64,000 nucleotides of DNA from the NCBI RefSeq assembly GCF_014656435.1, contig NZ_BNCK01000004.1, forward strand, positions 62,001-126,000, read 5' to 3'. Positions 39,528 through 60,456 of this stretch are shown here, one piece after another; within the stretch, counting starts at the first letter, position 1; every line of letters starts with the position of its first letter. The stretch is from Thalassotalea marina (GTDB taxonomy: Bacteria > Pseudomonadota > Gammaproteobacteria > Enterobacterales > Alteromonadaceae). The notes beneath the pieces were generated by a model. That model was given only the letters and a program-made list of their open reading frames with translations, was not told where the DNA came from and did no database searches. A program made the position numbers and the translations under genes.

Positions 39528-40370
39528 TCAGCCCCGAATAAACGGGAACAACATTAATGCATCTTTTATCAAAGATGTTTTATCACTTTTATTTAAATAT
39601 ATTGCGTATATATCTCGATGATATTCAGGTGCGTTTTCAACTAAATAAAGTTTTTTCTTGCGCACATGCTGAAAACACATTTGCTTAGGTAAATATGCGC
39701 AACCCGTCGCTTCCATAATAAAATTAAGTGCTATCCTAGGTTGGCTCATGTTATGCCTAATAGCAGTATTGTCTCCAAAATCACGCATAAACTGGCTATT
39801 CACCGACTCACCATAATCCACCATGACCATGTTTTCTATGGTATCTAATGAAGCTTCTGCATCTGTACTCACTAATTGTAAGGGAACAGACGCCACTTTT
39901 TCGGCAACTATGTCCTCCACATGCGGCGGTTCAAATAAAAACGCGATATCGATAAGGCGAGTAAGTAACTGTTTTCTCAATTCTAACGGCGAGAATGTGT
40001 GGGTAAATAAGTGTACGTCATCAAGGTTACGGTGAATTTTTTGCAGCCACTCTTGTAAAACAATATCCCAAATAGACATCATGGCACCAACAAACAACTG
40101 ATGTGAACTACCTTGTGCAATACCAACATCCTGTTTTACTTTTTGCCACATCATCAACATTTCATTGGCATGTTTTACCAACTTATACCCCTCAGCGGTT
40201 AGTTTTAATCGTTTTTGTGAACGATCAAAAAGTAAAACACCTAATTCGTCTTCTAATTGTTTTATTCTGCTACTTACGGCTGCTTGTGTCAGGTACAGGT
40301 TGTCAGCTGCTATTCTTACATGTAGTGTTTGACTTACTTCGATAAAAGTAGAGAGTAGTTCTATCTTCAT
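39528..40370 (-). CDS. LysR family regulator, HdfR-like
   Basis: 280 residues. The HTH domain (MKIELLSTFIEVSQTLHVRIAADNLYLTQAAVSSRIKQLEDELGVLLFDRSQKRLKLTAEG) closely follows E. coli HdfR, which represses flhDC. The effector domain is LysR-like but slightly short. It is divergent from the rimK operon (96 bases apart), so it may control that operon instead. The symbol is withheld because context differs. Confidence 0.82.
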   Translation of the reverse strand: MKIELLSTFIEVSQTLHVRIAADNLYLTQAAVSSRIKQLEDELGVLLFDRSQKRLKLTAEGYKLVKHANEMLMMWQKVKQDVGIAQGSSHQLFVGAMMSIWDIVLQEWLQKIHRNLDDVHLFTHTFSPLELRKQLLTRLIDIAFLFEPPHVEDIVAEKVASVPLQLVSTDAEASLDTIENMVMVDYGESVNSQFMRDFGDNTAIRHNMSQPRIALNFIMEATGCAYLPKQMCFQHVRKKKLYLVENAPEYHRDIYAIYLNKSDKTSLIKDALMLFPFIRG

Positions 40371-40465: not shown

Positions 40466-41371
40466 ATGAAAATTGCTATTTTATCTAGAAACGAAAATTT
40501 ATATTCAACAAAACGATTAAAGGAAGCGTGTTTATTGCGCGGACATGAGGTTGATATTATTGATACCTTACATTGTTACATGGACATCACTAGTGCGCGT
40601 CCAGCCGTACGATATCACGGTAAAGAATTACCTAAATATGATGCAATCATTCCAAGAATTGGAGCATCTGTAACTTTTTATGGCACAGCGGTAGCACGTC
40701 AATTTGAAATGATGGGAACCTTTAACGTAAACGAGTCGGTTGCGATCAGCCGTTCACGCGATAAATTACGTTCGTTGCAGTTGTTATCTCGCAAAGGCAT
40801 AGGTTTGCCACGCACTGGTTTTGCCAGTAAGCCAGACAACATTAAAGATTTGATTAAAAACGTTGGTGGTGCGCCAGTGGTAATTAAGTTACTTGAAGGC
40901 ACGCAAGGCATAGGTGTGGTATTAGCTGATACAGCAAAAGCCGCTGAAAGTATTATTGAAGCTTTTATGGGTTTAAAGGCTAATATTTTAGTACAAGAGT
41001 TTATCAAAGAAGCTGGTGGTGCTGACATTAGATGTTTAGTGATCGGTGGACGAGTAGTTGCTGCGATGAAACGTCAAGGTGCTGAAGGTGAATTTCGTTC
41101 TAACTTACACCGTGGTGGCAGTGCTGAAGTTGTTAGACTAAGCAAAGAAGAACGAGCAACGGCAATCGCTGCGGCAAAAGCAATGGGCTTAAATTGTTGT
41201 GGTGTTGATTTATTGCGTTCGCATAACGGCCCTATGGTAATGGAAGTTAACTCTTCACCAGGTTTAGAAGGTATCGAAAAGGCAACTGGTTTGGATGTAG
41301 CAGGTAAATTAATCGAATTTATCGAAAAAAATGCAAAAGAAAACGCGAACAAAACTCGTGGTAAAGGTTAA
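40466..41371 (+). CDS. rimK: Ribosomal protein S6-L-glutamate ligase RimK
   Basis: 301 residues, ATP-grasp ligase that adds glutamates to the C-terminus of ribosomal protein S6 and can form poly-alpha-glutamate. N-terminal [24 protein letters not shown]-binding [48 protein letters not shown] and Mg-binding [19 protein letters not shown] are complete. AGGAGC precedes the ATG. It heads a seven-gene co-directional set with an M14 hydrolase and a RimB-type protease next. Confidence 0.97.
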
Positions 41372-41394
41372 CTATTAGTTCAGGGAACAGGTGA

Positions 41395-42447
41395 ATGAAG
41401 AAAAGTAATTCAATGGATGCTCTAAAAATTGGCGAACATGCTATTTACCCGGGAGAAACACGAAAGGTTGATCTCCCAGTTGCAAGGCTATACACAGATT
41501 CAGAGGTCAATTTACCGGTTTATATCATTAGAGGTAAAAAACCAGGCCCAACTATCTTTGTTAGTGCGGCAGTGCATGGTGATGAATTAAATGGCATTGA
41601 GATTATTAGAAGACTGATAAACTTAAAAAAAATGCGCATTTCTTCTGGTACACTTATCGCGGTGCCTATGGTAAATGTTTATGGTGTTGTCAACCAAACG
41701 CGTTATATGCCAGACCGAAGAGATTTGAACCGAAGTTTTCCAGGTTCAGCCAAAGGTTCACTAGCTGCGCGTGTTGCCAATATCTTTTTAAAAGAAATTG
41801 TCAGCCATTGTGATTATGGTATTGATTTACACACAGGTGCTATTCATCGCTCAAACTTACCGCAAATTAGAGCGCAACTGTCTGATGAAGGCACACTTGA
41901 GTTGGCCAAAGCATTTGGTGTTCCTGTAATTTTGAACTCTAGTATTATCGAAGGATCATTAAGAGATGCCGCAGTAGAGGGTAATACCAAGGTATTACTT
42001 TACGAAGCGGGAGAAGCATTACGCTTTGATGAGTTTTCGATTCGTGCTGGCATCAAGGGCATTATCAACGTATTGCGTTATTTAAAAATGATGCCAAAAG
42101 GACGAACGGCAAAAAGCCAAGTGAATTATTTTATTGCCAATAATAGTGGCTGGGTTAGGGCAACCAGCAGTGGTATTGTGACACATCATTTTAAATTGGG
42201 TGACCAAGTTAAAAAGGGCGAAGTATTAGCTGATATTGGCAGTCCGTATGGCGAATCTTTAGGAACGGTTGTAGCTAATAAAGGCGGCGTGATTATTGGT
42301 AAACAAAACATTCCGCTAGTGCAGGAAGGTGAAGCCATGTATCACATTGCGTATTTTAAAGAAGATGATGAGCAAATAGCAGAACACATTGAAAGTGTCG
42401 AGACCGCATTAGTCCACGAGACTAAAACTAATGAGGAATTGTTATGA
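41395..42447 (+). CDS. Succinylglutamate desuccinylase/aspartoacylase-type M14 zinc hydrolase
   Basis: 350 residues. Zinc ligands His61 and Glu64 (HGDELNG) and His146 (DLHTG), with MPDRRDLNRSFPG for the substrate carboxylate, place it in the M14 AstE/AspA superfamily. The C-terminus has a lipoyl/biotinyl-like beta region (SGIVTHHFKLGDQVKKGEVLADIGS). Members of the superfamily cleave N-acyl amino acids or C-terminal residues. Between rimK and rimB-like genes, an action on glutamylated proteins or peptides is plausible, but this is inference. It overlaps the next gene by four bases. Confidence 0.85.
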   Translation: MKKSNSMDALKIGEHAIYPGETRKVDLPVARLYTDSEVNLPVYIIRGKKPGPTIFVSAAVHGDELNGIEIIRRLINLKKMRISSGTLIAVPMVNVYGVVNQTRYMPDRRDLNRSFPGSAKGSLAARVANIFLKEIVSHCDYGIDLHTGAIHRSNLPQIRAQLSDEGTLELAKAFGVPVILNSSIIEGSLRDAAVEGNTKVLLYEAGEALRFDEFSIRAGIKGIINVLRYLKMMPKGRTAKSQVNYFIANNSGWVRATSSGIVTHHFKLGDQVKKGEVLADIGSPYGESLGTVVANKGGVIIGKQNIPLVQEGEAMYHIAYFKEDDEQIAEHIESVETALVHETKTNEELL

Positions 42448-42878
42448 ACGATAGAACGATCATAGGTCACGTAGAAAATATTGATTTACCTGAATTAGGT
42501 ATATTTCAGTTAACCGTGAGGGTAGATACTGGCGCACAAACGTCTTCGTTGCATGTTGATAATATTCAACGTATTGCCGTTAAAGGGAAACCAGCAGTTT
42601 CGTTTGATATACACCCAGAAATTCACAACGTGGATAAAACGGTACGCTGCCAAGCTATGTTGCATGACGTTAGAAACATAAAGTCTTCAAACGGACAAAC
42701 TGAGCAACGTTATGTCATAAAAACCGCAGCGCTGTTAGGCGATCACGCTTGGGATATTGAGATAACGTTAACCGATCGTTCTGATATGACATATCTAATG
42801 CTACTAGGACGTCAAGCGATGTCAGATCGTTTTTACATCGATGCCGCGAATGCCTTTGTCGCATCATTAAGTCAGTAA
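42444..42878 (+). CDS. RimB-like retropepsin-type protease (ATP-dependent zinc protease family)
   Basis: 144 residues with the aspartic-protease-like motif VDTGAQTSSL (Asp28-Gly30), RYVIKTAALLGDHAWDIEITLTDRSDMTYLMLLGRQAMSDRFYID. This is the family called ATP-dependent zinc protease, which includes RimB of the Pseudomonas rimABK operon, a retropepsin-like partner of RimK. Its start overlaps the M14 gene (ATGA). Confidence 0.88.
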   Translation: MNDRTIIGHVENIDLPELGIFQLTVRVDTGAQTSSLHVDNIQRIAVKGKPAVSFDIHPEIHNVDKTVRCQAMLHDVRNIKSSNGQTEQRYVIKTAALLGDHAWDIEITLTDRSDMTYLMLLGRQAMSDRFYIDAANAFVASLSQ

Positions 42879-42893
42879 CTTAAAGGTAAAATA

Positions 42894-43769
42894 ATGTTAG
42901 AAAAAATCACTTATTGGCTGAACTACACGCTGTTTACCGTAAATGATACAAAAATCACACTTTTAGAAGTACTCACGGTACCCGCTTGGATCCTGTTGAG
43001 TTTTTATATCGCACATTTGCTGATTAAATTTATCGGTAAAAAGCTAAAAGCTAGAAACAAAGATCCTAATATCATTCATTTAGTGCAACGTATTTTATAT
43101 GTTATTGCACTGGCGATAATCTTTTTAACAACGTTGTCGTTATTGAATGTTCCTATTACTGCATTTGCGTTTTTATCGGGTGCCATAGCGATTGGTTTTG
43201 GTTTTGGTGCTCAAAATATTATTAACAACTTTATCAGTGGCTGGATTTTAATGGGTGAAAAACCTATTCGAATTGGTGACTTCCTTGAAGTTGAAGGGGT
43301 TAAAGGCGTAGTAGAAGAAATTAACACCCGATCGACTCGTGTTAGGCGTGTTGATGGCGTTCATATGTTGATCCCAAACAGCAAGCTTTTAGAAAATACT
43401 GTTATTAACTGGACGTTACGTGACAAGTTAATTCGTGGTGTTGTTGGTGTAGGTGTTGCTTATGGCAGTGATTGCCAAAAAGTGAGAGACATTATGCTTA
43501 AAGTGGCTAAGGAACAAAGCGAAGTACTAGTAGACGGTCTGCGCGATCCTATAGTGTTTTTTCAAGACTTTGGTGATAACGCACTGGTATTTGAGTTGTA
43601 TTTTTGGATCAATTCGCAGGTAGAAGGTGGCTTACGTTTGGTTGCTAGTAATATACGTTTTGATTTAGACGCTGAGTTTAATAGAGCCGGCATCGTTGTC
43701 GCATTCCCACAGCGAGATGTTCATATTGATGGTGAAGTGAAAATCGTTAGAGCAAAGCGCGAAGATTAA
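42894..43769 (+). CDS. MscS family mechanosensitive ion channel
   Basis: 291 residues: an N-terminal helix (VLTVPAWILLSFYIAHLLIKFIG), a second (ILYVIALAIIFLTTLSLL) and pore helix TM3 (FAFLSGAIAIGFGFGAQNIINNFISGWILMGEKPIRIGDFLEV), then the beta and alpha/beta cytoplasmic vestibule. It opens on hypo-osmotic shock in the inner membrane. AAGGT precedes the ATG; 15 bases from the RimB-like gene. Confidence 0.93.
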   Translation: MLEKITYWLNYTLFTVNDTKITLLEVLTVPAWILLSFYIAHLLIKFIGKKLKARNKDPNIIHLVQRILYVIALAIIFLTTLSLLNVPITAFAFLSGAIAIGFGFGAQNIINNFISGWILMGEKPIRIGDFLEVEGVKGVVEEINTRSTRVRRVDGVHMLIPNSKLLENTVINWTLRDKLIRGVVGVGVAYGSDCQKVRDIMLKVAKEQSEVLVDGLRDPIVFFQDFGDNALVFELYFWINSQVEGGLRLVASNIRFDLDAEFNRAGIVVAFPQRDVHIDGEVKIVRAKRED

Positions 43770-43800
43770 ACGCAATAGCTAACTAGCAAAAGGGGTAAAC

Positions 43801-44670
43801 ATGGAATCTTTAACAGTAAAAAATGCAATATGGTTAGTTGACTGTAAACATGAAACTAACAAGCTGGTACTGCAAAAAGTCGTTCGGTTTGTAAAAACCT
43901 ATCAGAGTGATTTAACCATAGTGTTTGATCAAAGACTAAGAGCGATTGAAAAAAAGTATTGGTTTAATTTTGCAGAATCAGAAGCCCTAGAAAAAGAATG
44001 GCATAATAGCGTTGAGAAAAGCAAAAACAACATTGTTAAGCTGTTAGCAAAAAGTAATATTGACTATCAAACAAAATGTTTGGATAAAGGCAATTATCGC
44101 GAGCTATTTAAAATACTAAATGAAGATAGCCTGTTGATTTTACAAGATGAAACTACCGAGCAGCGCCATCCTATTTTTCAACAGCTAGCCAGTATTCCTT
44201 GCCATGTTTACATTGCTAAAAAAGATAAGTGGAACGAGCAACCTAAAGTGATGGGGGCAATTGACCCACTACATGAGAATGCCAGACCTTTTGATCTCGA
44301 CCATTTAATTGTTAATCATGTTCGAGCATTAGCAAAACACTTGGAAGCTCAGTGGTATTTGGGCCACGCAAGCTATGTACAAGCAGCATTTTTAAAATAT
44401 AAAAAAGAGTTTGATAAAGTTCACCATGACGGAGTTAATGCTTTTGTCGACAGTATTGGTGTTAATAGAAGGCGTGTTGTTTTTTTAAATGGTTTGCCTG
44501 AAGATGCAATCAATAAATGGGTAAAAACCAATGAGGTTGATATTACTGTCATGGGTATTGTGGCAAGAAATAATTGGATTTCTCATTTGGTTGGCAGTAC
44601 AACCGTTGCATTATTGCAAAATCCACCATCAGATATGCTGTTAATTAAAAGTATGGCAGAGGATGAATAG
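43801..44670 (+). CDS. Universal stress protein, tandem Usp type (UspE-like)
   Basis: 289 residues with two Usp-like halves. The first is diverged; the second ends in the recognisable VDITVMGIVARNNWISHLVGSTTVALLQNPPSDMLLIKS. The glycine-rich ATP loop is partly replaced (IVARNNWISHLVGST), so nucleotide binding is uncertain. It lies in the rimK operon between mscS and zntB; AGGGGT precedes the ATG. Confidence 0.8.
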   Translation: MESLTVKNAIWLVDCKHETNKLVLQKVVRFVKTYQSDLTIVFDQRLRAIEKKYWFNFAESEALEKEWHNSVEKSKNNIVKLLAKSNIDYQTKCLDKGNYRELFKILNEDSLLILQDETTEQRHPIFQQLASIPCHVYIAKKDKWNEQPKVMGAIDPLHENARPFDLDHLIVNHVRALAKHLEAQWYLGHASYVQAAFLKYKKEFDKVHHDGVNAFVDSIGVNRRRVVFLNGLPEDAINKWVKTNEVDITVMGIVARNNWISHLVGSTTVALLQNPPSDMLLIKSMAEDE

Positions 44671-44706
44671 TTACCTCTTGGGTAATTATGCGTTAGGAAT
44701 AAAGAC

Positions 44707-45654
44707 ATGAACTATGAATTTTTAATTGATGCTTGGCAAATTAACGAACAAGGCCAAGGAACTCAGGTCAATCCCGCCGAATTAGACAACTACGACGGTG
44801 TGTGGATGCACTGTAATCGCTCGTCGGCTGAATTTGAACAATGGCTGGGTAACGAAGGCTTTTCAGAAGCGATTGTTAAATCGTTGTTGGCGACGGATAC
44901 ACGCCCTAGATTCCAGCAAATAGACGAAGAAAGCTTTTTCCTAATACTGCGCGGTGTGAACTTAAACTCAGGTAAACAACCTGATGACATGTTAACGATT
45001 CGCTTGTTGTATACACCCAATAGGTTGATCTCTTGTAATTTACAACGTTCTCGAGCGATTCAATCGGTTATAAGTGATTTTAAAAACGGACAAGGTCCTA
45101 AAAGCATTGAAATGCTAATTGTCGCAATATTGACTCAAGTTAATCTAAAAATTGAATCTGTTCTTGAGCCAATTGAAGAGTTTATAGATGCGCAGGATGT
45201 TGAATCTTACGATGTTAACCAAGTGAATGAAATTAACGCGATGCACAAAAAGCTATTACGTTTAAATCGTTTTCTTAAACCACAAACGCATGCATTGACC
45301 GCGTTGTCTAAGATCGAAATGCCAGTTTTTGAACAACATTTAGTCGGGCTAGCAAACCAGTTGGACAACCTTCAGCGTATTGTTGACACCATAGATTTTG
45401 ACATCGCACAAATTGACGTTATTAACAGTCGCATTGTGCAAATCCATAATGAAGTGATTAATCGTAATACGTATTTATTATCAATTATTGCAGGTATCTT
45501 TTTACCTTTAGGCTTTTTAACAGGGCTTTTTGGTATAAATATTGGTGGTATGCCTGGTGTAGAAAACAGTGATGCGTTTTATTGGTTTTGTGGCATCTTA
45601 ACGGGTATTGGAGTATTTGAGGTTGTCTTGTTTAGACGACTTAAATTTTTGTAA
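44707..45654 (+). CDS. zntB: CorA-family zinc transporter ZntB
   Basis: 315 residues: a large cytosolic domain and two C-terminal membrane helices (LLSIIAGIFLPLGFLTGLF and FYWFCGILTGIGVFEVVLF) with the family loop GINIGGMPG between them. The GIN plus GGMPG form favours ZntB over magnesium-type CorA (GMN). E. coli ZntB transports zinc. TAGGAA precedes the ATG. Fifth gene after rimK. Confidence 0.86.
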   Translation: MNYEFLIDAWQINEQGQGTQVNPAELDNYDGVWMHCNRSSAEFEQWLGNEGFSEAIVKSLLATDTRPRFQQIDEESFFLILRGVNLNSGKQPDDMLTIRLLYTPNRLISCNLQRSRAIQSVISDFKNGQGPKSIEMLIVAILTQVNLKIESVLEPIEEFIDAQDVESYDVNQVNEINAMHKKLLRLNRFLKPQTHALTALSKIEMPVFEQHLVGLANQLDNLQRIVDTIDFDIAQIDVINSRIVQIHNEVINRNTYLLSIIAGIFLPLGFLTGLFGINIGGMPGVENSDAFYWFCGILTGIGVFEVVLFRRLKFL

Positions 45655-45666
45655 AGTGGATTTTTA

Positions 45667-46167
45667 ATGTACGATTCTGACAATAAATTAATAGCTAGAC
45701 TACAATCAACTATTTATGTATCGGTTAAGGTTCTTGCCGTATTGATGACCTTTGTTATTTTTATGGGGGTGGTTGATGTAGCTTGGACTATTTATCAAAA
45801 GTTAGGCAATAAGCCGCTATTTATCTTAACGGTAAATGATATGTTGGCCACTTTTGGCTCGTTTATGGCAGTATTGATCGCCATCGAGATATTTGTGAAT
45901 ATCACTATTTATTTAAAAGAGGAGATCATTCACGTAAAAATAGTGATTGCAACTGCGCTTATGGCAGTATCGCGTAAAGTGATTATTTTAGATTTAAAAG
46001 TGGTAACAGCAGAACAGATTTACGGCCTAGGTATTTTAATCGTTGCGTTAAGTATCGGTTATTGGGTGGTACTGCAACTGCCCAGTGTGAAAATTAACAA
46101 GCCTAACGAACCAGCCAAGTTAACTAACCCACTTAAACAGCAAAGTGAACAAAAAGCGGATCAATAA
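45667..46167 (+). CDS. PsiE family (phosphate-starvation-inducible) membrane protein
   Basis: 166 residues with four membrane helices: VLAVLMTFVIFMGVVDVAWTIY, MLATFGSFMAVLIAIEIFVNITIYL, VIATALMAVSRKVIILDL and LGILIVALSIGYWVVLQL. The layout and the RKVI.LD segment fit the PsiE family, of unknown biochemical role. Last gene of the rimK set, 12 bases after zntB. Its stop codon lies inside the terminator of the convergent QEGLA gene. Confidence 0.83.
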   Translation: MYDSDNKLIARLQSTIYVSVKVLAVLMTFVIFMGVVDVAWTIYQKLGNKPLFILTVNDMLATFGSFMAVLIAIEIFVNITIYLKEEIIHVKIVIATALMAVSRKVIILDLKVVTAEQIYGLGILIVALSIGYWVVLQLPSVKINKPNEPAKLTNPLKQQSEQKADQ

Positions 46168-46175
46168 CGATCCGC
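46156..46175 (-). terminator. Terminator of the QEGLA gene, overlapping the end of psiE
   Basis: GCGGATC (46156-46162) pairs with GATCCGC (46169-46175). On the minus strand it is followed by TTTTT, 11 bases after the minus-strand stop. The hairpin covers the stop codon of the convergent PsiE gene. Confidence 0.75.
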
Positions 46176-46185
46176 TATAAAACAC

Positions 46186-47337
46186 TTATTTCAAACTATC
46201 GACCACAAACTTCAATACTGGGTCGGTTTCCATTGGGCGTCTAATGGCAGGGCTAATAAAGTTAGGCGCTATAAACACGCCTTGATCAACAAGCTTGTTA
46301 ATCAATGGCAATTGCTCCATTGATATTTTTCCGCACAATAAGTTATTGATATTGGTTTTGCTGTTGTATGCGGTAATAATTTGTTTAAACCCTTTAAGGT
46401 ACAAGTAGTCTTTAGTAAAGCCACCACCACGATAGACTCTAGAGCACATGGCAAATGCTTTTTCTTCTGAGAGTTTAAATTCTTCAACTAACATTGAAAA
46501 AGTCCGGCGAAAATCTTTTTCTTTTATCATAGAATCAACCGACACGACTCGAAGCGCCAACATGCGTAATCGATCTAACGACATAAAGCCTGCTAAGTAT
46601 TCACATAACATAGCTAAACCTTCTTGACTGGTTGTGTTTACTGGCGAGCCTAAAGCCAATATTTTTAATGGTTGTGCTTTTGCGTTCAACGAAGTCGCTA
46701 AATGCACACCAAGTTCATGGTGAGCTAATGCTTTTAGCTGCTGACGGTTAATTTTTGCTTTGCGATTGATTTTAACTACGTCACCTGAAACAAGCGCGTT
46801 AGCAATCATGCTATCAACTATTTCAAGTTTTAAAGGGTAGTGGTTTGCTTGTGCAAAGTTCTCAAAAAAGTGCTGTATTTCTTCAATAGAAACGGTGTCA
46901 GTTTCCGTCTTTTCTAAATCTGACGTTACATGCAATAAATAATGAGCGTTTTTAAGTTCACTATTGGCAGGCTCACCGTAGTAACGGAGAGAGTCATACA
47001 AAAACTCAGGGCTGCCGATGTGTTGAAACTGGTCGAGTTTATCAACATAAGACTGAATGACTTCACTGTATAGTGTATAAAGCGCTTTATTGTTTAACTG
47101 CTCAATAGGCAAGTTAAATAACTGACGTTTCTTTTCAAACAAAGCAATATTGTTTTGGTTATAAGTAAATTGGGGCGCTTTACTAAAGTTACTTTCAAAA
47201 AACTGTTTTTTTTGGTCTAAGTAATTAGTAGGTGCAATTGCCGTTAAAATATCAATGTGTTGTACGCTAACATACAATTGTTCATCAATTTGTTGTAACG
47301 TGGGATCAACACCACGATGTTTTGTTGCCTTAGTCAT
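46186..47337 (-). CDS. DUF1704 (QEGLA-motif) zinc metallopeptidase, MATCAP family
   Basis: 383 residues. An unusual HExxxH zinc motif is visible as HELGVH (His207, Glu208, His212), with the family hallmark QEGLA at 238-242 giving a further Glu. Annotation pipelines call it flavohemoglobin expression-modulating QEGLA motif protein. The same family in animals contains the tubulin carboxypeptidases MATCAP/TMCP, which remove C-terminal Tyr or Glu. It is convergent with the rimK operon. A role in trimming glutamylated C-termini is inference from family and context. Confidence 0.88.
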   Translation of the reverse strand: MTKATKHRGVDPTLQQIDEQLYVSVQHIDILTAIAPTNYLDQKKQFFESNFSKAPQFTYNQNNIALFEKKRQLFNLPIEQLNNKALYTLYSEVIQSYVDKLDQFQHIGSPEFLYDSLRYYGEPANSELKNAHYLLHVTSDLEKTETDTVSIEEIQHFFENFAQANHYPLKLEIVDSMIANALVSGDVVKINRKAKINRQQLKALAHHELGVHLATSLNAKAQPLKILALGSPVNTTSQEGLAMLCEYLAGFMSLDRLRMLALRVVSVDSMIKEKDFRRTFSMLVEEFKLSEEKAFAMCSRVYRGGGFTKDYLYLKGFKQIITAYNSKTNINNLLCGKISMEQLPLINKLVDQGVFIAPNFISPAIRRPMETDPVLKFVVDSLK

Positions 47338-48604: not shown

Positions 48605-49819
48605 CTACAACCTCGTTTTTGTTAAGATTGGCGTGTAGTAGAAAAGAAATATTGTAAAAGCGATTACCCAACATAAAGCACTGATTGTCCATCCCCAAGT
48701 CACCATACCCAAAGCAGGCAAAACAACGCGCGTTAATGTTGCGGCAATCATCAAGATAAAAGCGATAACAACAATACGTGGAATTTTTAACATTCTTCCT
48801 GTGTGGCCCAATGATACTCGGCTCATCATTGACAAGATCATAAAACCTATGGAACCAATGGTTATTAAATGAAACCCGTAAGTTGTTGGCAATTCATTAA
48901 ATACAGATATAAAACTTAACCCCATACCAATTAAGCCAGCGGCCATAAACAAGTAGGCAAGATGTAACGACCATAGAAGAGGCACATGAAATGTGTTTAG
49001 GCTTCGCCATTTCGACACTCTTAACAATTGACAAGCTCCAGAGATCAACAAAGTCGCTGACAAAACAGTGTTTAAGTTAAACCAAGCATTTAAAAAGTAT
49101 AAAATGGCACTACCTATGGCTAAAACAAAAACTAAGTTTTCAAGCCAGCTAATGGGTGGAATAGGAGGGGTTTTTGCGCCATTGACGGTAAAAAACGGAA
49201 TAACACGGCCGCCTAAAATGGTAATTAAAACCACAAAAACTAACACCATAGTTTTTGCTAAATGCAGCGCTAGTGATGAACTGTCAGCTAAATCTAAAAT
49301 TACTATTGATAAGTTTAATGTCGCCATAACGGTCAACAGCGGAATAAATATAAAGTTTCGTCTATTGTTCGTGCTAATGACAATTTCTGCATAAAAGCCG
49401 ATGACAGCTAACCACCAAAATGCTTTTAATACTAGCGCTATGGTAACTGTCATTTGGGTATTTGCCCAAAATAACGTGTGGCTAAACACCCACATAACAA
49501 CAAGTAGAAACGCCTTTAAGCCTTTAATACTCGATTTGCCCGTCCAGGTTTGTACGGCAGTTAAAATAAAACCGACCGCAACAGTTGAAGCAAAAGTAAA
49601 TATCATTTCATGGATATGCCAAACTAACGGTGACAATCCGCCATGGGAAAGTGCTAAGCCGTGAGTCATGTAACTAAGCCAAATAGTTAAACTAATGATG
49701 CTAGCCAAAGAAGCAAGTATAAAATGGCTGCGAAAAAGTAAATCAAAAACTGGATGTTGCCAAACGTATTGATGTTTGTTCTGGCTGGCAGATTGTTGCG
49801 GTTCATTAATTGTTAACAT
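48605..49819 (-). CDS. nnrS: NnrS family heme-copper membrane protein
   Basis: 404 residues with about twelve membrane helices and histidines typical of NnrS: FRSHFILASLASIISLTIWLSYM, PLVWHIHEMIFTFASTVAVGFILTAVQTWTG, GRVIPFFT, HVPLLWSLHLAYLFMAAGL and MSRVSLGHTGRML. NnrS lowers nitrosative stress by handling iron-nitrosyl species. It is 1 base downstream of a small membrane-protein gene and divergent from norR. Confidence 0.92.
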   Translation of the reverse strand: MLTINEPQQSASQNKHQYVWQHPVFDLLFRSHFILASLASIISLTIWLSYMTHGLALSHGGLSPLVWHIHEMIFTFASTVAVGFILTAVQTWTGKSSIKGLKAFLLVVMWVFSHTLFWANTQMTVTIALVLKAFWWLAVIGFYAEIVISTNNRRNFIFIPLLTVMATLNLSIVILDLADSSSLALHLAKTMVLVFVVLITILGGRVIPFFTVNGAKTPPIPPISWLENLVFVLAIGSAILYFLNAWFNLNTVLSATLLISGACQLLRVSKWRSLNTFHVPLLWSLHLAYLFMAAGLIGMGLSFISVFNELPTTYGFHLITIGSIGFMILSMMSRVSLGHTGRMLKIPRIVVIAFILMIAATLTRVVLPALGMVTWGWTISALCWVIAFTIFLFYYTPILTKTRL

Positions 49820-49820
49820 G

Positions 49821-50093
49821 CTAAAACACCTTATAACCTAATCCGTGTACGCCAACACAGCGAATAACATAGCCTATTTTAAACAAGCTGGCTGATAAAA
49901 TAGTACCAACATGGCCAGCTATCTGAGTTGAAAGGCTAACATATTGGTCTAGCGCAAAATTCATCGTAATAAGGGCCGCGGTTATAAGGCCACAAGTGAT
50001 CAATAGCCAATTCCCCGCAATAATACAAAGTTGAAAATTTAGCTGGCTATCATTAACAAAGGGTGAGTTCTTTAAAAATAACTGCGTGTACAT
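49821..50093 (-). CDS. Small membrane protein of the nitric-oxide locus (90 aa)
   Basis: Two membrane helices are predicted (LCIIAGNWLLITCGLITAALITM and IAGHVGTILSASLFKIGYVIRCVGVHGLG). No named family is assigned; the second half resembles the small transmembrane sensor-regulator-like proteins found next to NO genes. It is directly followed by nnrS (1 base) and preceded by a sigma54-type promoter and NorR-type sites, so it is probably induced by NO. Confidence 0.72.
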   Translation of the reverse strand: MYTQLFLKNSPFVNDSQLNFQLCIIAGNWLLITCGLITAALITMNFALDQYVSLSTQIAGHVGTILSASLFKIGYVIRCVGVHGLGYKVF

Positions 50094-50128
50094 AATTTGA
50101 TTACTATCAATAAAGGATACAATGACTA

Positions 50129-50145
50129 ATCAAATTTAGTGCCAA
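50129..50145 (-). promoter_or_regulatory. Sigma54-type promoter for the 90-aa gene and nnrS
   Basis: On the minus strand TTGGCACTAAATTTGAT fits the sigma54 -24/-12 pattern (TGGCAC-N5-TTGCW), with the correct 12-base GG-to-G spacing and one deviation (GA for GC in the -12 element). It points at the gene starting at 50093. Confidence 0.7.
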
Positions 50146-50197
50146 TAGAATAAAATGATAAATATCAATAAAATGGAAAAATTCGCTTGAGTATTGA

Positions 50198-50208
50198 GTC
50201 AATATGAC
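50198..50208. promoter_or_regulatory. NorR-type enhancer site 1
   Basis: GTCAATATGAC is a perfect palindrome of the NorR core (GTCA-N3-TGAC), lying about 53 bases upstream of the sigma54-type promoter. Confidence 0.7.
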
Positions 50209-50223
50209 ACACAATCGAATGTA

Positions 50224-50234
50224 GTCATAATGAC
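50224..50234. promoter_or_regulatory. NorR-type enhancer site 2
   Basis: GTCATAATGAC is a second perfect palindrome, with its centre 26 bases from that of the first. Both sites fall inside the longest possible norR frame, which argues for the later norR start at 50254. Confidence 0.7.
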
Positions 50235-50253
50235 ACGTGTGAGTCTTACTGGT

Positions 50254-51834
50254 ATGTCGATATCTAACACTTCTTTAATAGAATTAGCCATAAACCTTGC
50301 GAATGCAACAAATAGTAATACGCGCTTTGATGCTATGGTCAGTGCAATTAGAACTGCAATTAACTGTGAATCTGTTGCCTTACTTGTTCATCAGCAGGGC
50401 ACATTAGTTCCACTAGCGCTGCAAGGGCTCAGCAAAGATACGTTAGGGCGACGGTTTGTTATCAAAGAGCACCCAAGGCTGCTAAAAATATGTGGCACTG
50501 AGAAAGTAGTTAAATTCAGTAAAGATTGCACCTTACCTGATCCTTACGATGGCCTTTTAATTAATAGCAATGAAAACCTACCGGTACACGCCTGTATGGG
50601 AATGCCAATAATTAGCGAGGGAATACTTCTTGGGGTTGTTACCTTTGATAGTTTAGAGCCTGATGCGTTTGATCATTACGATGATAGAAGTTTACAGTTG
50701 GTTAATAGCATTATTGGACCTGTTTTTCATAACATGTTGCTAATGCGGCAACTAGAATCGGATATTTCTCACAATCAACAAGTTGTATTTGCTTTAAGTC
50801 ATCAGCAGGCAGAGTCTGGACGTTTTGAAATTATTGGTGAAAGTCCGGCAATTAAAAAGCTTAAACAAGAAATTAGCTTAATTGCACCAGCAAATTTTAA
50901 CGTGTTGATCCAAGGTGAAAGTGGCGTAGGGAAAGAGCTTGTTGCACATCAACTACATTTGGCCTCACAACGCAGTCATAACGCATTAGTTTATGTTAAT
51001 TGTGCTGCTTTACCAGATAACTTAATTGAAAGTGAGCTGTTTGGCCACGTAAAAGGCGCGTTTACTGGCGCTGATAAAAGCCGTTCAGGTAAGTTTTTGC
51101 TGGCTGACAAAGGTACGATATTTTTAGACGAAATAGGTGAATTACCCCTAGCTGTTCAAAGTAAACTATTACGCGTAATACAAAGCAATGAAATACAAGT
51201 ATTGGGTAGCGATCAAACACTAACGGTTGATGTTAGAGTGATTGCTGCTACTAACCGAGAACTTGCAACAGAAGTAGAACAAGGCACTTTTCGATCCGAT
51301 TTATATCACCGCCTACATGTGATGCAAATTACCATTCCACCTTTAAGAGACAGAGTAGACGACGTTTCGCTATTGTGTGGTTATTTTGTTGAGAAACTTA
51401 AACGTAAATTGGGAATACCGCAGTTAACCATAAGCAAAGCGGCGCTTAAGTATTTTAATCAATATCAATGGCCTGGCAACGTTAGAGAATTGGAACACAG
51501 TATTAGCCGTGCCGCATTAAAAGCGAGCCATCGAGCTAAAACACAAGGAAAGTTAAATATTGTGTCAATCGAGATAAACGATTGCGACTCCCTCGATAAC
51601 GCGACACAAGTTAAAGTTAATCAGGATGCTCCAGAGGTTGAACCTCTATTAAATGCCAGTTTAAAAGAGCAAGTTGAACACTTTCAAAAACAAATATTGC
51701 TTGCAACGTTAGAAGAAGAACAAGGGAATATTAGCGCTGCTGCAAAACGTTTACAGCTTGACCGAGCAAACTTAAACCGCTTATTAAAACGTTTGGGTGT
51801 TACCGTTAAAAAAGTAGTAACTCATTTAAGTTAA
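50254..51834 (+). CDS. norR: NO-responsive sigma54 activator NorR
   Basis: 526 residues: GAF domain with non-heme iron (about 15-170; [31 protein letters not shown]), AAA+ domain with Walker [14 protein letters not shown], sigma54-contact GAFTGAD and Walker [11 protein letters not shown], and a Fis-type HTH ([25 protein letters not shown]). The frame is open from TTG 50194, but the start is placed at ATG 50254: [19 protein letters not shown] aligns with the E. coli NorR N-terminus, and NorR-type operators occupy 50198-50234. Divergent from nnrS. Confidence 0.93.
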
Positions 51835-54468: not shown

Positions 54469-55104
54469 ATGCCAACAAAAATAACCATTTTAAATGCGTC
54501 TGGAAAGTTTTCTCGCGTTTTAGACTTATTGGAATCTAGAGCACAAAGATCACTTGCTGACATTAAAGCTCACATTGAGTTGCCAAATATAGATATAGTC
54601 ATTAGTCCGTGTAGCGATGAATATAAAACGGAAAGTGGTATTTTAGGGTGTGTTAGCAGTCAATATGTGATTGACATATTGTTAGATGCTGATCATGCAA
54701 ACCTAGTTGATATTATTAATCGAGAACTGACTGCGGTAATAGCGCATGAATTACATCACGTAATCAGGCAGTCTGCGGGAATTAAAAACAAAAATTTAAT
54801 AGAAAACCTTATTACAGAAGGGCTTGCTTGCCATTTTGAAACTAAGTTTAATGGCAATACCACGCCGAGATTTTTTGATGAGATTAAACAATATGATTGG
54901 CGTGATTTATTTCATCAAATGAAACCTCACTTACAAGATATCGATTTTGATTATCCCGTCTATTTTGCTGGAAAGGATACTAAACAGTTCCCTAATCGAG
55001 CGGGTTATTGGGTTGGTTTTAATTTAGTTTCACAATACATTAGTAAACATGGTGGATGTGCTGTTTCACTGGTTGCCAGTACTGCTGAAGAGTTACGCAT
55101 TTAA
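54469..55104 (+). CDS. DUF2268-type zinc metallopeptidase
   Basis: 211 residues with a gluzincin-like motif: HELHH in AVIAHELHHVIRQ (HExxH) and a downstream Glu in LIENLITEGLACHFETKF. The C-terminal YWVGFNLVSQYI fits the DUF2268 family of predicted zinc-dependent proteases. No signal peptide, so probably cytosolic. No clear ribosome-binding site at the ATG. Substrate unknown. Confidence 0.78.
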   Translation: MPTKITILNASGKFSRVLDLLESRAQRSLADIKAHIELPNIDIVISPCSDEYKTESGILGCVSSQYVIDILLDADHANLVDIINRELTAVIAHELHHVIRQSAGIKNKNLIENLITEGLACHFETKFNGNTTPRFFDEIKQYDWRDLFHQMKPHLQDIDFDYPVYFAGKDTKQFPNRAGYWVGFNLVSQYISKHGGCAVSLVASTAEELRI

Positions 55105-58086: not shown

Positions 58087-58275
58087 TGATAGCCACTGAC
58101 TGGATTTAAATTCTTATCAATATTTATTATTACTTCCAACAAAGGTTTCTAAATTAATCCAAGACTATTTGCCTTAAAACAAGGATAATTACCAGCAAGT
58201 TTTTATATCGATTAATTGGCATAAACATGTAAATGTTGAATTATGCTGATTAACGCGCCAAAGTTGGAATCCACC

Positions 58276-60456
58276 ATGGAAATTAAAGTAAATTTTCTCG
58301 ATAACTTGCGAATTGAAGCCAAGTTTGATGACTTTTCCGTCATTGCAGATCAACCCATTCGTTATAAAGGTGATGGTTCAGCGCCAAGCCCATTCGACTA
58401 TTTCCTTGCTTCATCAGCGTTATGTGCTGCGTATTTTATTAAGGTTTACTGTAATTCTCGGGATATTTCGACTGAAGGTATTAGGCTTTCTCAAAATAAT
58501 ATTGTTGATCCTGAAGACAGGTATAACCAAATCTTCCAAATTCAGGTGGAAATACCAGAACATATTTCTGACAAAGACCGCCAAGGTATTTTGCGTTCTG
58601 TTGAGCGTTGTACGGTTAAAAAAGTCATTCAAACCGGCCCTGAATTTAAAATAGAAACGGTCGAAAATTTAGATCAAGACGCACAAGCCATGTTAATGGT
58701 TGATGCAGACGAAGATCACAGCACGTTTATTCTTGGAAAGGACTTACCACTTGAGCAAACCATCGCCAATATGACTGAAATTTTGGCCGGTTTGGGCATG
58801 AAAATTGAAATTGCTTCATGGCGTAATATAGTGCCACACGTATGGTCTCTGCACATTCGAGATGCAGCCTCACCAATGTGTTTCACGAATGGTAAAGGAG
58901 CAACAAAAGAAAGTGCACTTTGCTCAGCGCTAGGCGAGTTTATCGAGCGTTTAAACTGTAACTTCTTTTATAATGATCAATATTTAGGTCAAGAGATCGC
59001 CAATAGCGACTTTGTGCATTACCCTAATGAAAAATGGTTTAAACCAGGTCCTAACGATGAATTGCCAACTGAAATTTTAGATGAGTACTGTTTAGATATT
59101 TACGATCCAGAAGGAGAGTTGCGCGGTTCGCATCTAATTGATACCAATTCAGGTAATGTTGAACGTGGTATTGTTTCTATTCCTTACACGCGCCATTCTG
59201 ACGGCGAAACCGTATATTTCCCGTCAAACTTAGTGGAAAACTTATTTTTAAGTAACGGCATGAGTGCGGGCAACAACTTCGAAGAAGCAAAAGTTCAATG
59301 TTTGTCAGAGATTTTTGAACGTGCTGTTAAGCGTGAAATTATCGAACAAGAATTAGTATTGCCTGACGTACCTGAGTCTGTTTTAGCCAAATACCCAAGT
59401 ATTGTTGAAGGTATCAAAGGGCTGGAAGAGCAAGGATTTCCGGTCGTTGTTAAAGATGCATCTCTTGGCGGTCGATTCCCAGTGATGTGTGTTACCTTGA
59501 TGAACCCAAAAACTGGTGGTGTGTTTGCGTCGTTTGGTGCTCACCCAAGTCTAGAGGTGGCATTAGAGCGAAGTTTAACTGAGCTTTTACAAGGGAGAAG
59601 TTTTGAAGGCTTAAACGATGTACAAAAACCAACTTTTAATAGTATGGCGGTTTCAGAGCCTGAAAATTTTGTTGAACACTTTATTGATTCGACAGGTGTG
59701 ATTTCTTGGCGATTTTTTAGCGCTAAACATGACTTTGAATTTGTAGAATGGGATTTTTCAGGCAGCAACGAACAAGAATGTGCAACCTTATTTGGCATAC
59801 TAGAAACATTAGGTAAAGAAGCTTATGTTGCTGAATTCACTGGTTTAGGCACTGCTTGTCGAATTTTGGTTCCTGATTATTCAGAAGTGTACCCAGTTGA
59901 AGATCTTATTTGGGACAATACCAACAAAGCGCTGAACTATCGAGAAGATATTCTAAACATTCATAAACTTAGCGATGAACAGTTAGCAGATTTGGTTGAA
60001 CGTTTAGAGGAAAGCCAACTTGATAACTATATCGATATAATCACGCTAATTGGTATCGAATTTGATGAAAATACGGTGTGGGGCCAGTTAACCATCCTGG
60101 AATTAAAGATCTTAATTTACTTAGCTCTTGGTGAAATTGAAGAAGCAATTGAGTTGGTTGGTGAGTTTTTACAATACAACGACAATACTGTTGAACGAGG
60201 TCTGTTCTATCAAGCTATGCACGCCACATTGGAAGTTGCACTAAATGACGATCTAGAAATTGAAGATTATCTTACTGCGTTTACCCGCATGTATGGCGAA
60301 GAAGTCATCAATAATGTTATAGGCTCAATAAACGGTGATGTAAAATTCTATGGTTTAACGCCAACTAGTATGGCGCTTGAAGGATTAGATAAACATCAGC
60401 GATTAATAGAAAGCTACAAAAAACTTCACAAAATGCGAGCTTCTCTAGCAAGTTAA
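58276..60456 (+). CDS. ycaO: OsmC domain / YcaO domain fusion protein
   Basis: About 727 residues from ATG 58276 (TTGGAAT upstream; an in-frame ATG lies at 58243). Residues 1-130 are OsmC-like (YKGDGSAPSPFDYFLASSALCAAYFIKVYC with the redox-type Cys). The rest is a full YcaO: HVWSLHIRDAASPMCFTNGKGATKESALCSALGEFIERL, YPNEKWF, VQCLSEIFERAVKREI and VKDASLGGRFPVMCV. E. coli YcaO potentiates RimO methylthiolation of ribosomal protein S12. The OsmC fusion recurs in marine gammaproteobacteria. A terminator follows. Confidence 0.92.
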   Translation: MEIKVNFLDNLRIEAKFDDFSVIADQPIRYKGDGSAPSPFDYFLASSALCAAYFIKVYCNSRDISTEGIRLSQNNIVDPEDRYNQIFQIQVEIPEHISDKDRQGILRSVERCTVKKVIQTGPEFKIETVENLDQDAQAMLMVDADEDHSTFILGKDLPLEQTIANMTEILAGLGMKIEIASWRNIVPHVWSLHIRDAASPMCFTNGKGATKESALCSALGEFIERLNCNFFYNDQYLGQEIANSDFVHYPNEKWFKPGPNDELPTEILDEYCLDIYDPEGELRGSHLIDTNSGNVERGIVSIPYTRHSDGETVYFPSNLVENLFLSNGMSAGNNFEEAKVQCLSEIFERAVKREIIEQELVLPDVPESVLAKYPSIVEGIKGLEEQGFPVVVKDASLGGRFPVMCVTLMNPKTGGVFASFGAHPSLEVALERSLTELLQGRSFEGLNDVQKPTFNSMAVSEPENFVEHFIDSTGVISWRFFSAKHDFEFVEWDFSGSNEQECATLFGILETLGKEAYVAEFTGLGTACRILVPDYSEVYPVEDLIWDNTNKALNYREDILNIHKLSDEQLADLVERLEESQLDNYIDIITLIGIEFDENTVWGQLTILELKILIYLALGEIEEAIELVGEFLQYNDNTVERGLFYQAMHATLEVALNDDLEIEDYLTAFTRMYGEEVINNVIGSINGDVKFYGLTPTSMALEGLDKHQRLIESYKKLHKMRASLAS

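Follow-up and report, generated by a model that had tools for sequence, protein, structure and literature searches.

Co-occurrence of stand-alone DUF1704 metallopeptidases with the glutamate ligase RimK, and a DUF1704 gene behind a rimK operon in Thalassotalea marina

The main clade of stand-alone DUF1704 proteins (clade C) occurs almost only together with RimK in the surveyed genomes: in our class sample, RimK is present in 38 of 39 clade-C genomes versus 130 of 331 others (p 1.7e-13). The DUF1704 gene studied here lies behind a rimK operon of Thalassotalea marina, and our best reading is that it encodes a zinc carboxypeptidase which would act on short glutamate tails or on poly-alpha-glutamate made by RimK. 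The locus is part of a 64,000-nt stretch of DNA, referred to as the window (assembly GCF_014656435.1, contig NZ_BNCK01000004.1, positions 62,001–126,000 of the forward strand). Genes were called from the open reading frames of the window and identified by Pfam and NCBIfam profile scans against curated cut-offs. All genes that an initial annotation had listed around rimK were recovered in place, with their families matched by the scans (Table 1).

Table 1. Features of the rimK locus and its surroundings. Coordinates count from the first nucleotide of the window.
Feature	Coordinates	Strand	Basis
LysR regulator, HdfR-like (below HdfR model cut-off)	39528..40370	-	Profile scans; divergent from rimK
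rimK, S6 glutamate ligase (ATP-grasp)	40466..41371	+	NF007764 464 bits vs cut-off 331
M14 AstE/AspA-type zinc hydrolase	41395..42447	+	PF24827 (AstE_AspA_cat) 131 bits
RimB-type retropepsin	42444..42878	+	PF05618 102 bits; NF052261 117 bits, cut-off 200 not reached
MscS-type mechanosensitive channel	42894..43769	+	PF00924 and PF21082
UspE-like universal stress protein	43801..44670	+	PF00582
CorA/ZntB-type transporter	44707..45654	+	PF01544 165 bits; ZntB best NCBIfam match, 173 bits, below cut-off 292
PsiE-type membrane protein	45667..46167	+	PF06146
Terminator-like stem, 9 pairs, between convergent psiE and DUF1704	46155..46176	listed on minus strand	Consensus match only
Stand-alone DUF1704 (MATCAP/QEGLA) metallopeptidase, clade B	46186..47337	-	PF08014 339 bits; TIGR02421 389 bits
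NnrS	48605-49819		PF05940 289 bits
GAF-sigma54-HTH_8 regulator	50194-51834		Profile scan

The window RimK clears the cut-off of its equivalog model. The retropepsin was named RimB-type, as NF052261 (RimB), despite its sub-cut-off score, is the highest of four RimB/RloA models; the protein carries the Asp-Thr-Gly motif (DTGA in the reading frame) and a PF05618 domain, and the gene order is rimK-M14-rimB. RimK and RimB-type genes are likewise clustered in the RimABK system of Pseudomonas fluorescens (RimK, RimB, RimA), and the C-terminus of ribosomal protein S6 in this genome is Glu-Glu, an acidic end as expected for a RimK substrate. In contrast to RimABK, the window cluster lacks RimA, includes an M14 hydrolase and MscS, and has DUF1704 behind it.

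The DUF1704 protein scores above both curated cut-offs (27 bits for PF08014, 338.65 bits for TIGR02421), and the HExxxH and QEGLA motifs claimed for it by the initial annotation are indeed present (HELGVH, residues 207-212; QEGLA, residues 238-242). The zinc-site residues H207, E208, H212 and E239, with glutamate as third ligand, are unchanged in all 98 aligned DUF1704 domains, as are R256, R263, R300, R303 and K309. The window protein shares its Pfam family with the animal MATCAP/TMCP proteins (KIAA0895L, KIAA0895): the DUF1704 profile matches human KIAA0895-like (MATCAP1/TMCP1) structures, 7z5g among them, at 4e-15, and the HExxxH, EGLA, RxxRG, FxKDxxYLxG and GKxS blocks align with the human chain. 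The two differ in that the window protein has QEGLA where the human one has EEGLA, and in that the former is bacterial and its carboxypeptidase activity putative. Human TMCPs are described as deglutamylases in the excerpted text of PMC10499314. Since the host of the window protein is a bacterium, tubulin is not its substrate. A structure model built from two sequences was poor, with a mean pLDDT of 40. Among the matches listed in a search of open-licence papers, we found neither a biochemical study of a bacterial DUF1704 protein nor a publication on DUF1704 together with RimK. DUF1704 beside ATP-grasp ligases may already be described in the ATP-grasp amidoligase survey that Iyer and colleagues published in 2009.

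A quick tree of 98 DUF1704 rows (68 stand-alone, 30 ligase-linked), in which 23 forks are weak and 13 clade-A rows carry a long-branch warning with respect to clade C, divides the family into three clades; four broken or fragmentary copies (G029, G221, G537 and G553) were left out. Clade C comprises 61 stand-alone long forms, and clade A consists of DUF1704 copies that have a GshB-like ligase or FGase of their own alongside. The window protein falls outside clade C, in a small stand-alone clade B that is nested in the ligase-linked clade A (SH-aLRT 97 in this quick tree). The seventh row of clade B, from Oleiphilus, is the one relative obtained in a scan of named genomes with the window DUF1704 as single query, and stands outside the six genomes in which RimK was counted. 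As a separate observation, kept out of the evidence, one alignment column that was picked by scanning all columns holds Y97 in clades B and C and L in clade A, and may mark a specificity residue.

Together, rimK, M14 and rimB make up a conserved unit. In 20 fetched rimK loci, which were hand-picked and include ten from the family of the window genome, M14 and the RimB-type gene each adjoin rimK in 18. Other features of the window locus recur more sparsely: loci L079 and L083 also have a LysR relative beside rimK (71% and 60% identity) and MscS directly 3′ of rimB, and L118 has a CorA-family gene downstream of rimK-rimB. DUF1704 is present in none of the 20 loci, which were drawn from outside the cases where RimK and DUF1704 had been seen close together (four in genus g16, later three in the class sample). 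On this count, the idea that DUF1704 belongs to a conserved rimK locus is rejected. The module proposed in the initial annotation is partly supported: for rimK, M14 and rimB as a unit, but not for DUF1704 as a conserved rimK neighbor.

Seen from the side of DUF1704, RimK is found within 6.5 kb of 8/68 stand-alone rows, in four lineages, and of 0/30 ligase-linked rows; in the fetched stretches of the remaining 60 stand-alone rows it is absent within this distance. By chance, about 0.35 such proximities would be expected in 67 loci, with RimK copy numbers partly assumed. When all DUF1704 neighbors were clustered, RimK was tied second by lineage count. The contexts of the window and Oleiphilus rows were assigned manually, and a greedy reading-frame filter dropped some real genes (five DUF1704 reading frames are absent from the neighbor tables), so that neighbor counts may be too low.

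The strongest competing explanation, which we consider rather unlikely, is that the window DUF1704 works in a GshB-like/FGase ligase pathway of the same genome, with a small glutamyl peptide or some other protein as its substrate, and lies next to rimK by chance. The nesting of clade B in the ligase-linked clade favors it, as do the poor conservation of the rimK adjacency in relatives and the terminator-like stem, a consensus match only, that separates DUF1704 from the rimK operon. Moreover, the genome does contain such a pathway: a second DUF1704 domain forms one protein with an FGase domain, and its gene directly follows a GshB-like ATP-grasp gene (C13 of this genome), an operon type that probably also includes Photobacterium RS17020-RS17025. 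The window copy shares the DUF1704 domain with this group, in which its clade is nested, but it lacks an FGase domain and no GshB-like gene adjoins it, whereas the operon has its own ligase next to it. The fetched stretches (that of L056 being just 5 kb long) carry no tagged GshB-like or FGase gene within 6.5 kb of clade-B DUF1704, and neither L097 nor the scanned window genes include one. The order sample includes six clade-B genomes, of which four (G085, G017, G132 and G144) have a single DUF1704 match each, indicating that the ligase-linked copy is absent there, yet all six have RimK.

For the survey, the threshold for counting RimK as present was E<=1e-60 for the class and phylum samples, and for the order sample a score exceeding the cut-off; since match lists with positions were capped, presence was read from the genome rows and proximity was determined on the fetched DNA. 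G029, a fragment closest to clade A, was counted there in the order sample, G221, G537 and G553 were placed in no clade, and G135, G189, G284 and 12 new phylum genomes were assigned to a type from their score and frame length. The co-occurrence of DUF1704 with RimK that the initial annotation would predict is pronounced for clade C, but in clade B, to which the window gene belongs, the 6/6 genomes with RimK in the order sample do not reach significance (p 0.083). In the order sample, 21 of 22 clade-C genomes have RimK (p 1.2e-4), and in the one exception, G183, RimK-like pieces lie at the ends of contigs; no match of the RimK class was obtained for G556, a clade-C genome whose best score is 79 bits. 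Ligase-linked DUF1704, which serves as an internal control, is accompanied by RimK in only 4/17 genomes of the class sample and 7/15 of the order sample. Conversely, 129 of the 168 RimK-positive class-sample genomes lack a stand-alone DUF1704, and DUF1704 is absent from all 14 control genomes, including E. coli, which has RimK; DUF1704 is therefore at most an accessory. A role as substitute for RimB was rejected, as PF05618 occurs in 35/39 RimK-positive genomes with stand-alone DUF1704 versus 114/129 without (p 1); this family also covers RloA-type proteins, so these counts are not of RimB alone.

We regard it as improbable that this co-occurrence merely reflects common ancestry and lifestyle of RimK-rich gammaproteobacteria with no biochemical link. 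Stand-alone DUF1704 is clumped by lineage: all 12 further stand-alone genomes of the phylum sample have RimK, nine of them from one family. The counts are by genome, genus and family rather than along a species tree, and, judged from listings, only a few families have both states. However, the association persists by genus (RimK in 31/32 with stand-alone DUF1704 versus 102/241) and, for clade C, by family (21/21, p 4.8e-6, with the total of 167 families an estimate), the ligase-linked clade shows no RimK link in the same samples, and proximity to RimK is found in four lineages. A function in the nitric oxide response is highly improbable: the NCBI family name is flavohemoglobin expression-modulating, NnrS and a GAF-sigma54 activator lie 1.3-4.5 kb from the window DUF1704, and an NnrS relative lies near one clade-C gene (G466), but among DUF1704 neighbors the regulator is confined to the window and NnrS recurs in two lineages, versus four for RimK, and the name, a hypothetical-equivalog label, spans all three clades alike.

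Returning to a carboxypeptidase acting on RimK products, we give an even chance to a locus that writes and removes glutamate chains in a low-osmolarity setting, with DUF1704 as the hydrolase that trims glutamyl products of RimK or of a neighboring ligase. RimB is an eraser of RimK tails and requires six contiguous glutamates, or five with the encoded one, according to the excerpted text of PMC11957791; a need for five to six glutamates leaves room for an exopeptidase. Long chains are cut by the endopeptidase RimB, the published part of the scheme, and DUF1704 may take glutamates singly off chains too short for RimB or break down released oligoglutamate; more tentatively, M14 would complete the breakdown of the short glutamyl product. 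In general terms, DUF1704 may hydrolyze the glutamyl product of its partner ligase in each genome, be this RimK or a neighboring GshB-like ATP-grasp protein. The window gene would have originated in the GshB/FGase-linked lineage, lost its FGase domain and come to lie behind the rimK operon, from which it is probably transcribed separately.

Adaptation to low osmolarity is a probable setting. In the excerpted expression data of PMC10308900, low salt raises expression in Photobacterium 52-fold for RimK, 38-fold for a GshB-like gene and 27.5-fold for a QEGLA gene; by locus number, this QEGLA gene adjoins the GshB-like gene and is thus probably of the ligase-linked type, unlike that of the window. 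Of the tie to stress drawn in the initial annotation, these published data favor low salinity over stress in general. The Rlo system of Pseudomonas aeruginosa (RloA retropepsin, RloC ATP-grasp, RloB) also pairs a retropepsin with an ATP-grasp protein and is linked to hypo-osmotic stress; it differs in its secreted proteases, and DUF1704 is absent from its description in the excerpted text of PMC12239564.

A bolder and unlikely extension is a bacterial low-osmolarity glutamate-polymer cycle, in which RimK or the GshB-like ligase would chain free glutamate on S6, on peptides or as free polymer, leaving fewer solute particles and retuned ribosomes, and RimB and DUF1704 would give the glutamate back. 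If such a cycle existed, the animal tubulin-code pair of an ATP-grasp writer and a MATCAP-type eraser would be matched by an older pair in bacteria. The tails that RimK adds to ribosomes act as a regulatory switch, RimB is inactive in vitro on tails below its minimum length, and DUF1704 is a concrete, easily assayed candidate for complete tail removal. If true, a family that so far carries just a flavohemoglobin label would gain a function, and the glutamate codes of bacteria and eukaryotes would be connected.

A quick tree of 98 DUF1704 domains split the family into three clades. The 61 rows of clade C are stand-alone proteins, 52 of them with stop-to-stop frames of 424–501 residues, and BLAST searches detected no FGase domain in any of the 61. 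The 30 rows of clade A are ligase-linked, 16 of them being FGase fusions; 29 either carry FGase or have an FGase or GshB-like ATP-grasp gene within 6.5 kb. The window copy belongs to clade B, seven stand-alone rows of about 385 residues that are nested within clade A (SH-aLRT 97 for a set of 24 containing clade B). This suggests that the window protein arose within the ligase-linked group and that its FGase domain and neighbouring ligase gene were both lost. Seven further DUF1704 proteins, covering the three clades, were scanned with NCBIfam, and each passes the same QEGLA model. In one genome, G360, which has no RimK match at E≤1e-60, two FGase-less DUF1704 genes flank two GshB-like ligases (locus L142), representing another DUF1704-ligase arrangement. 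In G221 (contig C45) and G029 (contig C1), the DUF1704 frame is interrupted by internal stops and probably represents a decaying copy; RimK gave no match in G029, whose DUF1704 fragment is nearest to clade A.

Conservation analysis showed that clade C co-occurs with RimK. Among 370 genomes of the class, 38 of the 39 with clade C encode RimK compared to 130 of the 331 others (Fisher p = 1.7e-13), as do all 21 families with clade C. Considering all stand-alone DUF1704 in this sample, 39 of 41 genomes are RimK-positive; by genus, RimK is present in 31 of 32 versus 102 of 241 genera (p = 6e-10). In 197 genomes of the order, RimK accompanies clade C in 21 of 22 cases (p = 1.2e-4), and the exception, G183, carries fragments resembling the N- and C-terminal parts of RimK at the ends of contigs; these probably come from two similar RimK copies that were split by assembly. 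The sole unexplained miss, G556, is a draft genome of 95% completeness whose sister genome G491 has RimK. All 12 stand-alone genomes newly met in a phylum sample (244 genomes) are RimK-positive, nine of them from one family and 11 from families already covered by the class sample. In the ligase-linked clade, RimK presence does not differ from background (4/17 in the class and 7/15 in the order sample). The dependence runs one way, since 129 of the 168 RimK-positive genomes of the class sample lack a stand-alone DUF1704 and none of 14 control genomes, including E. coli, contains DUF1704.

Locations of features
Feature	Location	Strand	Size
rimK cluster	window 40466–46167	+	
DUF1704	window 46186–47337	−	
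NnrS, GAF-sigma54 regulator	window 48605–51834		
DUF2268 predicted zinc protease	window 54469–55104		
OsmC-YcaO protein	window 58243–60456		
GshB-like ATP-grasp ORF	L057 (contig C13, window's genome)		391 aa
FGase-DUF1704 fusion ORF, following	L057 (contig C13, window's genome)		663 aa
RimK-like pieces, N- and C-terminal, two each	G183 contigs C63, C81, C58, C76 (L158, L160, L161, L162)		
Second RimK paralogue with signalling genes	L037:3108–8377; L038:3026–8404		

ORF analysis and family scans of the window agree with the gene description of the initial annotation, and the HELGVH and QEGLA motifs of DUF1704 were found where it had placed them. A LysR gene is divergent from rimK, which is followed by genes for an M14 AstE/AspA-type hydrolase, a RimB-type retropepsin, MscS, a UspE-like protein, a CorA/ZntB-type transporter and PsiE. 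The stop codons of psiE and DUF1704 lie 18 bases apart, and a terminator-like stem of nine pairs (a consensus match only) covers this junction; thus, DUF1704 is probably transcribed separately. In this genome S6 ends with Glu-Glu, as would be expected for a RimK substrate. The genome also has a second DUF1704, fused to FGase and directly behind a GshB-like gene; this pair is probably of the same kind as one whose expression rises strongly in Photobacterium at low salt. NnrS and a GAF-sigma54 regulator adjoin the window DUF1704 in a possible nitric oxide cluster. The window also encodes a DUF2268 protein and an OsmC-YcaO protein; in E. coli, YcaO has been connected with the modification of a different ribosomal protein.

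Twenty rimK loci of the order were fetched, ten of which belong to the window's family; loci already recognised as close to DUF1704 were not among them. M14 and RimB each adjoin rimK in 18 of the 20, MscS directly follows RimB in two, and CorA-family matches occur anywhere in the stretch in six, several at low identity. Thus, the order has an established rimK-M14-rimB unit, with MscS as a local addition and DUF1704, present in none of the 20, as an unusual neighbour. No paper combining RimK and succinylglutamate desuccinylase was found in a collection of open-licence papers. The initial proposal that the locus may write, trim and erase glutamate tails, with DUF1704 as eraser for RimK, finds more support genome-wide, through clade C, than it does here: the window gene lies outside the clade with strong statistics, and RimK in 6/6 clade B genomes is alone not significant (p = 0.083).

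RimK is encoded within 6.5 kb of DUF1704 in 8 of the 68 rows of clades B and C and in 0 of the 30 rows of clade A. The eight rows fall into four lineages: the window itself, four genomes of genus g16, two of family f161, and G223. With partly assumed RimK copy numbers, the chance expectation for 67 loci is about 0.35 (P = 5e-4 for at least four, 4e-9 for at least eight); the former value is safer, as sister genomes do not count as independent. The layout is similar in f161, G223 and the window: DUF1704 converges on the end of the rimK cluster, at gaps of 9 and 33, 57 and 18 bases, respectively, and a CorA-family gene lies in between in both G223 and the window. In a clustering of every gene within 6 kb of a clade B or C gene, with no candidate list given in advance (66 fetched loci and the window), RimK (four lineages) shared second place with a cluster resembling ABC-type ATPases, behind a broad cluster of apparent PAS-type signalling proteins (nine lineages), both of these broad clusters being named by eye; RimB was found in three lineages. 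At L037 and L038, a second RimK paralogue adjoins receiver-GGDEF-EAL, receiver and CHASE-PAS histidine kinase proteins (domains scanned in L037 only) with DUF1704 divergent, a setting reminiscent of c-di-GMP control of RimK by RimA.

The zinc-site residues H207, E208, H212 and E239 and the basic residues R256, R263, R300, R303 and K309 are invariant in all 98 domains, and the DUF1704 profile matches human KIAA0895-like structures (4e-15) with the same motifs. Human TMCPs are described as HExxxH carboxypeptidases that strip polyglutamate from tubulin (PMC10499314). RimB is reported to be an endopeptidase requiring six contiguous glutamates, or five together with the encoded one (PMC11957791), so that short tails would fall to something else. 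Replacement of RimB by DUF1704 is not borne out, as PF05618 occurs in 35 of the 39 RimK-positive genomes with and 114 of the 129 without stand-alone DUF1704. Instead, DUF1704 might act as an exopeptidase complementing RimB, which is consistent with the residues, the human match, the RimB limits and the PF05618 counts. Gene layout, residues, co-occurrence and proximity are observations of this analysis; the activity, the substrate and the role in physiology are inferred.

The rimK cluster of the window includes a channel and a CorA-family gene; we take K05844 to be RimK and K03284 to be CorA. Glutamate-modification genes including K05844 are reported to be commoner in brackish genomes than in marine relatives, and likewise a mechanosensitive channel and the magnesium uptake gene K03284 (PMC10219603). 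In Photobacterium damselae, low salt is described to increase RimK 52-fold, a GshB-like ligase 38-fold and a QEGLA gene 27.5-fold (PMC10308900), and hypo-osmotic stress reportedly requires RimB-like RloA proteases (PMC12239564). Together with the channel and CorA genes of the window, these data make low osmolarity our best guess for the setting in which the system would act in T. marina.
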